Source of the DNA: Diphasiastrum complanatum
Lineage: Eukaryota > Streptophyta > Lycopodiopsida > Lycopodiales > Lycopodiaceae
NCBI GenBank assembly: GCA_029204225.1
Contig: CM055092.1
Location: 84,068,026 to 84,132,025, forward strand
Direction of reading: 5' to 3'
Length of the DNA: 64,000 bases
In this document: positions 5,550 to 11,326 of the stretch, in pieces
Layout of the letters: each line of letters starts with the position of its first letter
Numbering within the stretch: the stretch's first letter is position 1
Notes under the pieces: model-generated
The model's input: the letters and a program-made list of their open reading frames with translations, nothing else
Databases searched by the model: none
What the model was told of the DNA's origin: nothing
Made by a program: the position numbers and the translations under genes

Positions 5550-6125
5550 TCGAACAATGCTCGAGCTAGAGCTAGAAGGTAATTGCATATAATTTGATAA
5601 AAGTGGCAAAAGGTAATTTTACCATATTAGTGAATTCAGAAAACAAACTTCCGAAAATTAGTGTCTTAACTCGAGCAGTGCTAGAGTTAGAAGTAGAAGT
5701 TGATTGCCCACCATGTCAAAGTCAAACACTCCTAGAAAGGGAGAAACGATTCACCCTCTCTTCTGCTCTCAAAATACGAAGCCAATAAAGTTCACCAATA
5801 AAGTTCATCATAAACCAATAAACAGTTTCTAACTCGAGCATTGCTCGAGTTACATGTCAACGTTGGAATCACAAATCAAGGCAGGAACCCATGAATTTGT
5901 ATCATTATAAAACTCTTGTAGCTTGAGTTAGTGCTCAACGTCTAAAATGTTTGGACTGTAGTACAAGCGTTGATATAGAGAGGGTACAAGAAATGGCTAG
6001 AACTCGAGCACTGCTCGAGTAGGCTGGATCTGATTTTTTTTAAGACTATAGTAATAGTGTCCAAATAAAAAGTATGCAATCTGTCCCCCAACTCTAGCAC
6101 TCCTCCAGCACTATGTTCTAACGAC
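5550..6125. repeat. CTCGAG dyad array, cluster 1
   Basis: Imperfect palindromes with 10-nt arms AACTCGAGCA and TGCTCGAGTT around one base are found at 5668-5688, 5831-5851 and 6001-6021, with decayed forms near 5551, 5921 and 6091. The 5831 copy is perfect in both arms. The sequence between them has no coding capacity that I recognise. Confidence 0.7.
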
Positions 6126-7080
6126 AACTCATTGACATGACAAAGAAATCATTCATTTGAGTTTCTCATGAGTCATGACCATTAGCATTTCTGACTTTGT
6201 GTATTTCAGGCCTAGTATTTTTGGGACTACATTAGGTAGTTTCATTGATTAGGGTTTAAAAGATATTTTTGTTTTTTTAGGAAACATAAAAAATTCTTTA
6301 ATAACACAACAATCTTTGTTCAAAGTCCAAAGATACAAGACTAGAGTAAATTTGATCACACAAAGAGTTGTTCATTTAAAGCCTAGTAGTTTGGTATTGG
6401 AACAACATCCTATTAGTAAGTACAAGGAGTGTATATACCACATTAGATTAGAGCAAAAATATAAAATTGGCTATGGCTACAATATGTCAAGTATCACCAA
6501 AAACGTTCAAGACAAACATGTTTAAGCAAATTGTTTAATATATTTGATGACATTAGTCATCACATATGTTACTAGTAATACATGAGACTTCACATATTGT
6601 CTCATAACACACACATGCCTTCATAATTAATACGTGAAATATAGAAGAGCTCAAACATATGTGAGACCTTTAAAATAAATATCAAAGGAAACTAGAATCG
6701 TAGATATCAATGCTCACATATTTATTTCCAAATGCATTTTTGTGTTTCCAAAACAAAATTGCATTGCAAAAGTTGTAAAAACACATGGCAAAATTATGTC
6801 TTATTTATGTTTTTATTAAGTAACGACTTGGTATAAGACTTCTATGCCAAACTCTCACCTTGACTAAATTTGAATTTGGGTTCCCCCCAATTTTAGACTA
6901 CTAGAGACTAGAAACTAGTGACTTGCGAATTTTTGAAACATGGTGCTTGGAAGAGCTTAGATTAGACTAGAAATAAGCAATCTAGAGAGCATAGATTATA
7001 CTAGAGATTAGTAATCTAGTTGAATTATTTTCCCTCCAGTTTAATTTTCACTAGTAGAGATTTGAGAATACAATTAGAGA
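6126..7080. other. No gene seen; AT-rich spacer
   Basis: I see only short shadow ORFs here, and a stretch near 6895-7020 where ACTAGAGACTAGAAACTAGT-like words are repeated. I see nothing that supports a gene. Confidence 0.5.
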
Positions 7081-7400
7081 TTACGCTGCTCAAACAAGAT
7101 TAGCAATAACAGATCATACAGGAACAACGAAAGCGACAAAATTATACAGGCACACAATCAGAGATTATGCTTCTAAGTCAGCATTAGCATTTACAATTCA
7201 TTCAGGAAAAATAAAGCGACAAGTTCATATAGTTCATGCAGGTACAATGAAAGCGACAAGATCATACATGTACAATAGTAGCGAAAAGAAGTAGGAGGCA
7301 AAATAGTAGCAAAAAGAAGTGGAAGTGCACAATAGTAGCAAAAAGAAGCAGAAGGATGCACAATCGAAGAAACAAGTGGAAGTGTAGTTTATGAAGAACT
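7080..7400. repeat. Minisatellite region with about 29-bp units
   Basis: From about 7272, four units beginning ACAATAGTAGCAAAAAGAAG repeat at about 28-31 bp. Upstream, words such as GAAAGCGACAAGATCATACA repeat at about 60-70 bp (near 7128, 7215 and 7249). The region is noncoding in appearance. Confidence 0.6.
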
Positions 7401-7851
7401 TTATTCATCAACAACCAGAAAACAAGGAGCGGAAGGAAGATCAAAAGCGCAAGGACTTTGGCTGGATACAAAACAGATTTCACAACAATGCATCTTTTAG
7501 AACAGTAATTTCAAGCATCAAACGTACCACATAGCAATAGCAAGAATCGGCAACAAGGAGCGTACCTGATACCAAGAACCAGAACCGTATTTTCGCAAGA
7601 TCAAAGGAAGCATCATGGCAAGCAATAGTAAGGTAGGCACATTTCCAGAAACGCCATACTCTTGCAAGCATTATCAAAATCGCCATTCAATCGCAATGTG
7701 TCTAAATGATCTCTTAGAAAACCTCTACCCCTTTGAATATTAGCACATTGCTATACTGCATTCCTTGAGAACAATGTAGTCATAAATTAAATGTTTCACG
7801 AGCAGATTTCCAAGGCATTGAGGAATATCACCTTGCTAGAGTTCACAATGC

Positions 7852-8050
7852 GAGAGAGAGAGAGAGAGTGAGAGAGAGAGAGAGAGAGAGAGAGAGAGAG
7901 AGAGAGAGAGAGAGAGAGAGAGAGAGAGAGAGAGAGAGAGAGAGAGAGAGAGAGAGAGAGAGAGAGAGAGAGAGAGAGAGAGAGAGAGAGAGAGAGAGAG
8001 AGAGGAAGAAGAAGAAGAAGAAGATGATGATGATGATGATGAAGATGAAG
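7852..8050. repeat. Long (GA)n run with GAA/GAT tail
   Basis: About 150 bp of nearly pure GA is followed by GAA and then GAT triplets. From 8050 to 8520 I see no gene, only AT-rich sequence. Confidence 0.95.
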
Positions 8051-8523
8051 GGAAAAAAAGAGAGAATGCAAGCTTAAAAAGACGAGAACTAGTTTTGCTT
8101 GTTCATAGCCATAGATATGTATATATTTACAATGATGGAGAACTCAAGGAAGGGTGGCAAAATAAATTTGTAATATGTTATATTTGCTAATGCACGGGAG
8201 TTGGCATTGCCAATTAGTTAAAATAAATGTATAGTAAGTTATATTTGCTAATCGAGTACTACTTTTTATATTTAAGTTATGTCCTTCTAGTAGAAAAGAC
8301 CAATTGTAAACCAGAAGATATGATTGTATATATTAATACACATGAGTCTATTAAGCTATTCAATCAAACAAAATCTTTGAGGCATATTAACTAAGAACAT
8401 AATGGTAATGATCAATTCATAACACAAGTTTTATCTACAATCAAAAAAGTACTATGGATCCTTTGTCAGGAGTGTGTAAATTGCTTAGTTTAAGGATTGT
8501 ATAGTCCAGATTCTTATTTGCAT

Positions 8524-9114: not shown

Positions 9115-9364
9115 AGAGCTTGTCACTCAATAGAGGCCGAAGAACTCTCTCACATATGGGTTTTTGGAGGGAAACCTCAAGTTTAGTGGGCACCACCATG
9201 ACATACAGCCATCCCCATACTTAAGCGTGTTCATTGATCAATCATTGAAATACTGCTACTTTTTGATCTGGAAGAGGATGTTAGGACAACAATACAACAA
9301 TAAAGAGTGATACATTTCACTTTGTAGTTTTCCATCAATTTAAGGTTGGAATCTGGATCGCAAT

Positions 9365-9640
9365 CATAGAATTAATGAACCGTGTACGGTTGACCATGGT
9401 TGTGAGAACATAGCGTCCACGGTTATAAAAAAAATTCTCATTTTATATAGCACGTCCACGTGCTATGTTTTGGAGGTTTATATAGCACGTCAGCGTGCTA
9501 TCTTTAAAGGTTGCAAAAAAAATTTTAGAACTATTTTACTTAGCACATCTATTTATTATATTTGGAGATTAAAGTAAAACAACTATTTTTTTTTTCGGAC
9601 AGCCAGGTCAGTGTGCTATGTTTGGAGGCTGCAAAAAAAT
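9365..9640. repeat. Foldback remnant and tandem hairpins with ACGTG cores
   Basis: 9366-9420 (TTAATGAACCGTG...CCACGGTT) is a diverged inverted relative of the foldback at 35575-35790. It is followed by about 60-bp units, each with a hairpin. The first, 9447-9466, has 9-nt arms ATAGCACGT and ACGTGCTAT around CC. A second imperfect one is at 9482-9501 and a decayed one is near 9600. G-box-like CACGTG halves lie in the stems. From 9660 to 10240 I see no supported gene. Confidence 0.55.
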
Positions 9641-10298
9641 TTAATTTGAAATTTTTGAGATTTTAAACTATGTACCAAACCACATTCTTAATAATAAACA
9701 TTGAAGTAGTGGCATAAAAAGGGTAGCACACCATGTGCTATATTTTTGTTGAATCATGATAAGAAAGAAACTCGCAAAACCCACAAAATATTTACTCGCA
9801 AAATGCCAAGGCCCTATCTGATGCGGTTTATTGTCAAAGCTACGAATAGGACTACAATCACCGTTAGTGCTTAATGGCATGTACAGGGGTAACAGGCGGG
9901 CCACTACCATGGTGACACAAGGCAGAGGTGCCCGAGGCAGCTAAGGGATCGTATTTTGCTGGGACCCACATTTTGACCCTGTCCAAATTTTTGGATTTTG
10001 GGAGCCCATTTTTTGCGAAGACCCACTTCAATATCTGATATGGCTCTTCATCTGTTAATTCTCCCTCTATTGAAGGTGTTCCGAGTGGATTACATTGCCC
10101 CATGCCATAGTCTCTCAAGATATTTTATGTGTATGATTGTTGACTGATTGTAATTGTCCTTTCATTTCGATTTCTTGAGACATTTAGCTATGTTGTAAAG
10201 TCTTTTGTAGACATATGATATTTGATTGTTTTTCAATTGTACAAGTATTATATGAATCCTTTGTTAGGAGGGTATAATTTGGACAAAATTTGGTGTCC

Positions 10299-10514
10299 AA
10301 CTCGAGTAGTGCTCGAGTTGGAAGTATTCTCTGAAGCCTTTGTAGACATATGATGTTGGATTGCATTTTTAGTTGTGTAGACCAGATTCCAAATTGTGGA
10401 ACTCGAGCATTGCTCGAGTTTGGTATACCATGATTCCTTGGTCAAGCTTGCTATAATTGGTAGGAGTGTGTAATATGGACAAAGTTGGTGTCTATCTTGA
10501 GCAGTGCTCGAGTT
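10299..10514. repeat. CTCGAG dyad array, cluster 3
   Basis: Dyads at 10299-10319 and 10400-10420 are near-perfect, and one at 10494-10514 is imperfect; spacings are 101 and 94 bp. The interspersed text matches cluster 2. From 10560 to 11280 nothing coding is recognised. Confidence 0.8.
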
Positions 10515-11326
10515 AGATGTATGCCATGATTCCATTGTACAGACATATCATATGTGTTGCTTTTTGAGTTGTATAAAGCAGTTTTCCATTTACAAAAATC
10601 AATAAACCCTTGCTGTAAGCGTTATCGTCAATGAGAAGTATAAATCAACCGCAAAAACTCTCATACTTTTATTACATTCCTTCAATCATAAATACCTACA
10701 ATATCAATGATCATAACTAAGAAAAAAGGCAATAATAATAGACGACTCAGAACTCTACTGAATTTCCTATCACAAAAAGGATGAAAATGCCTGAAAGACT
10801 TGAAATGCTATGATCTAAGCTCAAACTAAAGCTTCAAAACACAAGGTTTTATCAAAGGGCTTCTTGGTTTCTCTGTCACCCGTCAGAATCCCAATAGATT
10901 GCAGCCTTCTTTGTTATGTTGGGTAATATCTTAGAAATAAACTTACATATTTTTTTGTTGTTTAAATAGATATGGAATTCTCATTTGAGATCTTTGTCTA
11001 AGTTATTTTGTGCTGGTTTGCACTGATTCTTTCTATTTTCAGTAGTGCATTCTAAACACCAACATTGCTTTTGAGTTAGCCTTCATCAGGATCGAGTCTA
11101 CCTTTTACTTTAGGAGAATGAAGGGAAATCCAATGTAATACATTGTAGGAAAATCCAATTTAATACAAATGTGTGAAAGCTAATGTAAAGATATGTTTGA
11201 ACTTTTGCATGTGACCCAACTTACTCTTAGGCACTAACAAAGTGAGTAGGAATGGATGTAGCATTTCATTTGTGTTGTACAAGGTCACAACCAGCAGACC
11301 TCCGTTCACCTGCTCTCCAAGCTTAA

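Follow-up and report, generated by a model that had tools for sequence, protein, structure and literature searches.

Three clusters of a 21-nt dyad in Diphasiastrum complanatum lie in a single truncated copy of a gene-carrying dispersed repeat

Three clusters of a 21-nt quasi-palindromic dyad are found in a 64,000-nt stretch of Diphasiastrum complanatum DNA (the window), and all of them fall within the same truncated copy of a repeat that bears a gene and is dispersed in the genome. We consider it probable (about 0.6) that this copy, at 5550–10590, is the dead, truncated and reversed remnant of a gene-carrying mobile element of the class II type, in which the dyads are candidate binding-site arrays of a control region.

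The clusters, first described in an earlier note, were confirmed. The motif AACTCGAGCANTGCTCGAGTT occurs 11 times in the 64-kb window at up to 3 mismatches, always inside 5668–10514, and in none of 100 dinucleotide shuffles (0 expected). The note had counted at least twelve dyads; 14 sites have at least 15 of 20 matches, and they fall into cluster 1 (5547, which a junction truncates, 5668, 5831, 6001 and 6090), cluster 2 (8524, 8715, 8798, 8899, 8993 and 9094) and cluster 3 (10299, 10400 and 10494). Regular spacing in two clusters also held, at 83–101 bp in clusters 2 and 3, save one of 191 bp, within which a further dyad (~8616) is partly deleted. That several dyads are perfect was overstated, as this is true of two of the 14 (5831 and 10400). 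Among odd-centred palindromes with at least 9 of 10 arm positions paired, 13 are present in the window after low-complexity filtering, and six of them are the dyad motif. Helical phasing of the dyads is weak (resultant 0.47). A tRNA search found none, and a sub-threshold Rfam match to snoR116 lies outside the dyads.

Without a later insert, 5550–10590 is a reversed, truncated copy of the dispersed repeat, in which clusters 2 and 3 represent an array A and cluster 1 an array B:

4346–5549, plus strand: unrelated flanking repeat, 95% identical to 13618–14818, outside the element
5550–6130, minus strand: remnant of array B (cluster 1), with dyads at 5547–5567, 5668–5688, 5831–5851 and 6001–6021
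6131–8440, minus strand: dyad-free middle part, including a (GA)n run at 7852–8004
8440–9120, minus strand: first piece of array A (cluster 2), from monomer alignment and an HMM scan; monomers alpha 8524, beta 8616 (dyad partly deleted), gamma' 8715 (chimeric), gamma 8798, alpha 8899 and beta 8993, then dyad 9094
9121–10185, no strand: insert of ~1.06 kb interrupting array A, with its own even-centred dyad ATAGCACGTCCACGTGCTAT
10186–10590, minus strand: second piece of array A (cluster 3); monomers gamma 10299, alpha 10400 and beta 10494

Clusters 2 and 3 are a single tandem array of ~95-bp monomers with a trimeric higher order, parted by the insert. The gamma spacer stops at ~9121 and continues at ~10178–10186 on the other side, 10275–10586 is 90% identical to 8774–9084, and the array ends at ~10588. 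The two pieces are matched by 10 and 11, respectively, of 25 family loci fetched from the genome (covered fraction 1.00 for each), and the insert (9125–10180) by none. Coverage is likewise complete (fraction 1.00, 13 of the 25 loci) for 5550–8364. The middle part is 88–91% alike to loci L019, L016, L020 and L025, the L016 alignment spanning 8365–8439 as well, and it contains no dyad site with at least 13 of 20 matches. In the array B remnant, three dyads align with array-B dyads of the family (alignment columns 1272, 1442 and 1605) and decayed dyads lie at ~5920 and 6090–6110. The dyad at 5547–5567 is severed at ~5553, where the flanking repeat meets array B within the dyad via a common TCGA. 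This flanking repeat is matched by none of the 25 loci, and both flanks of the window copy are uncovered by family loci. Reading the pair 4346–5553 and 13618–14818 as LTRs was rejected, since homology to other copies continues beyond the supposed LTR end. Comparison of cluster 1 with the array-A spacers in both orientations gave nothing significant overall (one spacer with z 3.0, reversed, in 50 tests); the cluster was later identified as array B.

The search of the window's genome (1.745 Gb) revealed 1527 dyads at up to 2 mismatches, and 0 with the reversed control. The 25 fetched loci were drawn from 50 listed of these 1527 places, a biased sample because the 50 are all perfect matches, on contigs C1–C7. 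Array A, a middle part of 1.6–2.6 kb and array B follow in that order in four of the 25 loci, and gene pieces adjoin array B in six. With the overlapping L014 omitted and the near-duplicates L021/L022 and L031/L032 both retained, 24 loci contain 298 dyads with at least 16 of 20 matches, 48 of them perfect. The largest array A seen has 25 dyads (L016); that of the window has ~10 monomers. Retrotransposon-like ORFs, judged by eye, lie near L016, L019 with L038, and L029, and were treated as neighbours.

The repeat family is most likely a mobile element of the class II type, its mobility being suggested by its dispersal. Neither terminal inverted repeats nor a target-site duplication were found in the window or at two supposed family edges, and the pieces scanned contained no transposase. 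Candidate terminal repeats with duplications, sought between 3500–8530 and 10300–14500, amounted to six short pairs that were chance-like or the dyads themselves. To the left of array A, L016, L027, L028 and L035 have a minus-strand ORF that looked TNP1-like by eye; a Pfam search covering part of the element gave it no match, even with E as high as 10.

In family copies the dyad adjoins pieces of a gene with a NIF-type phosphatase domain (E 7e-6, and 1.4e-4 in a second subfamily, both above Pfam's cut-off); in the other gene pieces scanned nothing beyond NIF was above that cut-off. In L031, of one divergent subfamily, dyads lie between gene pieces, and such stretches are probably introns. The gene is constrained between subfamilies in two of six exons and drifts like a pseudogene within family copies; the other four exons have no counterpart in L029, L031 and L018. 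Changes by codon position are even within the family (193/185/195) and uneven between subfamilies (90/79/147, two exons), so that the gene agrees with the picture of past constraint and present drift given by the dyads (below). A ParB-like reading of an exon with the letters DGQH was an impression by eye, for which Pfam and PDB gave no support.

The same gene could belong to a host multigene family of NIF-phosphatase-like proteins, whose upstream regulatory arrays spread by segmental duplication and whose dyads are sites for host transcription factors. We regard this as unlikely. It would accord with the lack of a transposase or element ends, with the two exons under constraint between subfamilies, and with L021/L022 and L031/L032, which are segmental duplicates of each other. 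However, the gene pieces in family copies drift in a pseudogene-like manner, the 50 listed places are spread over seven large contigs, and L021/L022 hold array A and the middle part without array B and the gene start.

The earlier note described the dyads as better kept than their surroundings, and named dyads diverging as fast as spacers as a finding that would refute its reading. Among like copies the dyads do diverge as fast as the spacers and the description fails; across array-A monomer types it stands, and there, as between arrays A and B, the dyads do not keep pace with the spacers. Spacer divergence in array A is 0.140 within a type, 0.339 between beta and gamma and 0.431 between alpha and the others, and dyad divergence is 0.171, 0.225 and 0.173, respectively (eight monomers; 8616, with its dyad deleted, 9094, with no following spacer, and cluster 1 were omitted). 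None of 16 contiguous, ungapped 20-column spacer blocks had a between-type excess as small as that of the dyad, nor did any of 45 array-A blocks when two odd monomers were left out, in which case the dyad also gains some excess (from 0.125 to 0.191). Random draws of 20 spacer columns rarely matched the dyad's low excess (0 of 20,000, and P 0.0008). Spacers of arrays A and B have no detectable similarity (BLAST of B spacers from four copies against 27 A spacers from three copies, 0 matches at E 0.01), yet the 21-nt dyad is the same in both; within copies, B spacers gave 85 matches to one another, none on the opposite strand. Constancy across A types and between the arrays, together with spacer-like divergence between copies, indicates past constraint and present drift of the dyad. 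Of its positions in the 298 family dyads, the inner A/T ones changed 3, 4, 4, 5, 3 and 0 times and the outer A/T ones 27, 20, 16 and 17 times, while the C/G positions are the most changed (16–81).

The trimeric tandem array of clusters 2 and 3 and the equal divergence of dyad and spacer in like copies are what would be seen in an ordinary satellite or minisatellite, where the dyad, bound by no protein, is passively carried along in a tandem unit during amplification and homogenisation. This explanation appears rather improbable, as it already conflicts with the A/B contrast, in which the same dyad sits amid dissimilar spacers in array B, and with dyads that stayed constant while the array-A monomer types diverged. 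In place of a long homogeneous array of one monomer family, the arrays are short and the A and B spacers dissimilar.

Dyads might also be alike without selection on binding if conversion or spread of the palindrome had copied one arm, or one site, onto another. Consistent with this, dyad distances are unrelated to spacer distances (Mantel r -0.04), variants at the paired positions 8 and 14 co-occur 25 times among 255 sites where 7.6 would be expected, and dyads contain both the 5553 junction and the 8616 deletion. The tracts would, however, have to end within ~20–27 bp every time, the paired excess is marginal at fixed locus composition (37 against 30.2, p 0.036), and homogenisation is absent in recent copies, all of which leaves this explanation with little probability.

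Homologues beyond this genome were considered and rejected. The sole IMG/VR match has no array around it and lies within what seems, by eye, to be coding sequence from a single-stranded RNA phage, and six bacterial matches are single dyads with nothing alike beyond the dyad.

That the dyads act as hairpins, whether in RNA or in single-stranded DNA (for replication, for termination or as a source of small RNA), is very improbable: the two perfect dyads fold as DNA at -9.4 and -9.2 kcal/mol, 10299 at -12.3 and the decayed 8993 at merely -3.5, and six bacterial loci each contain a single occurrence of this 21-mer (five preceding at least six T, terminator-like; three in one shared context), but arm pairs in the 12 window dyads changed on one side in 20 cases, on both sides with loss of pairing in one and on both sides with pairing kept in none, the 298 family dyads show 430 one-sided changes against 55 two-sided still pairing and 13 not pairing, and Rfam gave no match at the gathering threshold.

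Among the three guesses of the earlier note, a protein-binding dyad fits best, a hairpin is weakly disfavoured and the third, a conversion hotspot, keeps a small probability. If the copy derives from a mobile element, a protein with two-fold symmetry would bind the dyads, and the element itself probably encoded it. By analogy with known systems, this protein may gather on the noncoding control region and either keep the region active, as VANC does, or aid transposition, as TNPA does. In active elements the site would be retained, and multiplied by tandem duplication within whichever spacer bore it; after insertion, copies would lose function and drift, chiefly through transitions of the type that cytosine deamination produces.

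The VANDAL elements of Arabidopsis, which bear genes, carry the targets of VANC as tandem arrays of a 9-base motif in one orientation; these arrays sit in noncoding sequence, in introns and upstream regions, and they expand and diverge fast while sharing the motif (PMC5735166, PMC10398659). The repeat described here likewise bears a gene and has a short motif that recurs across noncoding tandem arrays unlike each other in sequence, but its site is 21 nt long and two-fold symmetric. Neither the VANC21 nor the VANC6 motif, as published, is in excess in the window (3 found and 2.45 expected, and 1 found and 3.04 expected, respectively). Loss of methylation in a sequence-specific manner once the protein is expressed is a trait of the VANDAL/VANC system. 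Its genes are VANA (the transposase), VANB and VANC, the last with DUF1985/DUF287 (PMC5735166). Domains of the VANA, VANB and VANC types, including DUF1985/DUF287, were absent from the pieces scanned, and the gene here carries a NIF-phosphatase exon instead.

In being palindromic, the sites of arrays A and B also resemble repeats of CACTA elements of the En/Spm type. The soybean element Tgmt* has palindrome-forming subterminal repeats, of which one end carries 2 and the other 12, and in maize En/Spm the element's TNPA protein binds repeats of this sort (PMC2613891). Here, however, array B adjoins the gene, kilobases away from the supposed ends. CACTA-type termini are not in excess in the truncated window copy (30 against 37.2 and 41 against 38.45 expected), the two supposed family edges do not start with CACTA, and the pieces scanned contain no tnp2 domain. 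Retand retrotransposons are alike in that a noncoding region of these plant elements, located between pol and the 3' LTR, has tandem arrays specific to each family, but in the available part of that source no conserved palindrome is described (PMC11963269). Moreover, Pfam does not identify the gene adjoining array B as gag-pol, though retrotransposon-like ORFs, judged by eye, lie near some loci. A CENP-B box is a short protein-binding box that is kept as satellite monomers diverge. Unlike such satellites, the present arrays are short and dispersed and go together with a gene-bearing repeat, and the box is common to two dissimilar sets of spacers.

Among the literature matches listed, none describes this element by title, which is not proof of its absence, and the titles found with the dyad letters look like cloning or unrelated work. 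It is a speculative proposal, with the odds against it, that this is a previously undescribed plant mobile element, neither VANDAL nor CACTA, which combines a NIF (RNA polymerase II CTD-phosphatase-like) protein with tens of 21-nt symmetric sites for its own dimeric regulator, the upstream and intronic arrays representing an independently evolved, VANC-like self-activation via transcription or anti-silencing. To our knowledge, few mobile elements keep one short site across arrays that otherwise change freely. In this genome two clocks can be separated: constraint acted on the site between monomer types and on the protein between subfamilies, while both drift in dead copies, so that coupling of site and protein can be tested from sequence alone. 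If the proposal is true, a phosphatase-domain gene would join the proteins that such elements may use against silencing.

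The 21-nt CTCGAG quasi-palindrome (the dyad: two 10-nt arms, each containing CTCGAG, around a single free base) occurs at 11 sites with ≤3 mismatches in the 64-kb window as against 0 in 100 shuffles, which bears out the earlier note. At ≥15 of 20 matches there are 14 sites, only two of them perfect where several had been claimed, and the best score in the window beyond 5547-10514 is ≤14/20. Of the three clusters described (5547-6110, 8524-9094 and 10299-10494), the second and third are one tandem array (array A), whose ~83-101-bp monomers are of three kinds by spacer, arranged as alpha, beta, gamma′, gamma, alpha, beta, (insert), gamma, alpha, beta. 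One of its nine monomer dyads (8616) is partly deleted and the gamma′ monomer (8715) is a gamma-alpha chimera. The spacers of cluster 1 differ from those of clusters 2 and 3, and its first dyad is truncated at ~5553, where an unrelated repeat abuts via a common TCGA.

Sequences interrupting or abutting the window arrays
9121-10185, insert splitting a gamma spacer of array A
4346-5553, unrelated 1.2-kb repeat, 95% identity with 13618-14818

The insert has a different dyad, ATAGCACGTCCACGTGCTAT (within 9447-9790), with a near copy 35 bp further and weaker repeats; by eye, it looks like the subterminal repeat of another element. Elsewhere in the window, a 3,721-bp tandem unit (16016-23693; an exact match of 3,724 bases at that offset, with 18 mismatches across the 3,957-bp compared span) is either a duplication that happened very recently or an artefact of assembly. 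Copia-type polyprotein pieces identified with Pfam (gag, beta-barrel, integrase and the start of reverse transcriptase) lie at 46525-49074 and 55022-57963. The sequence GGCTCTGATACCA (13346-13358), which we take to be the complement of the initiator tRNA-Met primer-binding site, suggests a minus-strand retrotransposon. Three separate arrays of 20-22-bp units resembling TGAATACTGATCGTGAAAC (27984-28071, 29156-29326 and 52500-52638) look related by eye.

The genome-wide motif search that the earlier note called for returned 1527 dyads with ≤2 mismatches in the 1.745-Gb assembly; the reversed control gave none. Of these, the 50 places listed are all perfect matches on seven large contigs (C1-C7), and two of them are inside the window; the family sample comprised 25 stretches of 9.9 kb taking in the other 48. 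These contain 1 to 35 dyads each, and in four (L016, L019, L020 and L025) array A is followed, after a 1.6-2.6 kb gap, by a second array (array B), while the remainder have only portions of this layout or lone dyads. Window segments 5550-8364, 8440-9120 and 10186-10590 are matched by 13, 10 and 11 of the 25 loci, respectively (fraction covered 1.00 in each), and the insert and both flanks by none, indicating from sequence comparison that the window holds a truncated, reversed family copy in which clusters 2 and 3 correspond to array A and cluster 1 to array B. Three window dyads aligned to array-B dyads of family copies. Two loci ~166 kb apart on contig C6 (L031 and L032) are inverted copies with 97-98% identity over most of their length, and two 1.2 Mb apart on C3 (L021 and L022) share 98-99% over long stretches.

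With dyads stripped, B spacers of four copies had no match at E 0.01 among 27 A spacers (three copies), yet matched one another 85 times within copies, on a single strand throughout. One dyad thus occupies two tandem arrays that have no other detectable similarity. Among like copies, dyads get no protection: within monomer types of window array A, differences number 24/140 in dyads and 67/478 in spacers, and between family copies divergence is 0.031-0.119 and 0.029-0.091, respectively (12 comparisons among four copies, with a third copy used to ascertain the dyads). The suggestion that dyads are better kept than their surroundings, which fails here because they diverge as fast as the spacers, holds across array-A types (eight monomers; 8616, 9094 and cluster 1 excluded), where spacers differ by 0.339 and dyads by 0.225 between beta and gamma, and by 0.431 and 0.173 between alpha and the others. 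Dyad distances are unrelated to spacer distances in window array A (Mantel r −0.04). None of 16 contiguous 20-column ungapped spacer blocks had a between-type excess as low as the dyad, nor did any of 45 once the chimeric and truncated monomers were dropped, in which case the dyad itself climbs from 0.125 to 0.191. Cluster 1 dyads differ from those of clusters 2 and 3 at 66/480 positions. On the plain reading, the dyads were kept at one sequence during spacer divergence and have later drifted singly.

Among 298 dyads (≥16/20, 24 loci, near-duplicate loci retained), transitions make up 403 of 566 changes and 169 are at CpG; the most-changed positions are C/G (16-81 times), as expected from deamination. 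More telling are the A/T positions, of which the six inner ones changed 3, 4, 4, 5, 3 and 0 times and the outer ones 27, 20, 16 and 17 times. The central base is unconstrained (A 53, C 124, G 72, T 49). A hairpin, one of the candidate readings, fits less well, as arm changes are mostly one-sided (430, against 55 two-sided still pairing and 13 two-sided unpaired). Positions 8 and 14 do covary (25 together, 7.6 expected, 255 sites); this may come from descent within sub-arrays, since the overall paired excess is marginal once locus composition is kept (p 0.036). The changes fit better with methylated DNA carrying a symmetric site for a protein than with a hairpin. The perfect 21-mer also occurs once in each of six bacterial contigs, preceding a run of ≥6 T in five, like an intrinsic terminator; this is probably unrelated convergence.

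Gene pieces adjoin array B, on the side opposite array A, in six loci (L015, L016, L019, L020, L023 and L025), with later pieces of the same gene in L027. L023 has a 333-aa reading frame with a NIF phosphatase domain (E 7e-6, exceeding the Pfam cut-off), as does L029 of a second subfamily (1.4e-4, narrowly past it); for the other pieces, including one that contains VVDGQHTIQVAKNLL, neither Pfam nor PDB gave a supported match. Substitutions between six copies and L023 are spread evenly over codon positions (193/185/195), as expected of dead copies. In comparison with L029 and L031, the counts are 90/79/147, a skew indicating selection on this protein at the time the subfamilies separated, as judged from two exons, the remaining four having no counterpart there. 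Left of array A, four copies share a reading frame that is divergent from the NIF gene; its substitutions (16/17/22 by codon position) are too few to be informative, a Pfam scan gave no match, and it is possibly the element's second protein.

Shared reading frame and supposed element edges
L016 2258-2521, minus strand, reading frame
L027 2941-3429, minus strand, reading frame
L028 3432-4013, minus strand, reading frame
L035 2959-3510, minus strand, reading frame
L016 2131 and L027 2904, supposed left edge, from 2-3 copies
L019 (joined) 11283, L021 1610 and L022 1520, supposed right edge, from 2-3 copies

Other copies end at points different from these edges. Neither element ends nor target-site duplications were found in the window or at the two supposed edges, nor a transposase in Pfam scans of the gene pieces; ORFs resembling those of retrotransposons lie close to some loci and were judged by eye to be neighbours. 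A host gene family dispersed by segmental duplication is possible. Two known element models fit. One is that of the TNPA-type proteins of CACTA elements, whose subterminal repeats can pair up as palindromes; Tgmt* has 12 within 732 bp at one of its ends (PMC2613891). The other is that of the VANC proteins of VANDAL elements, which recognise short motifs located in tandem repeats and cause silent marks to be lost (PMC5735166 and PMC10398659). According to PMC5735166, VANC motifs are located both upstream and within introns; L031 resembles this, with dyads in the interval separating two exon-like stretches and also past the second one. We lean towards the VANC-like model, given that the arrays lie beside genes and seem to extend into them; the element is assigned to neither VANDAL nor CACTA because the features of these that were tested were not found or gave no clear outcome. 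The common dyad, dissimilar spacers, past constraint, present neutrality and once-constrained gene are taken as established, and a dimeric protein, probably element-encoded, would bind the dyad on a noncoding control region.
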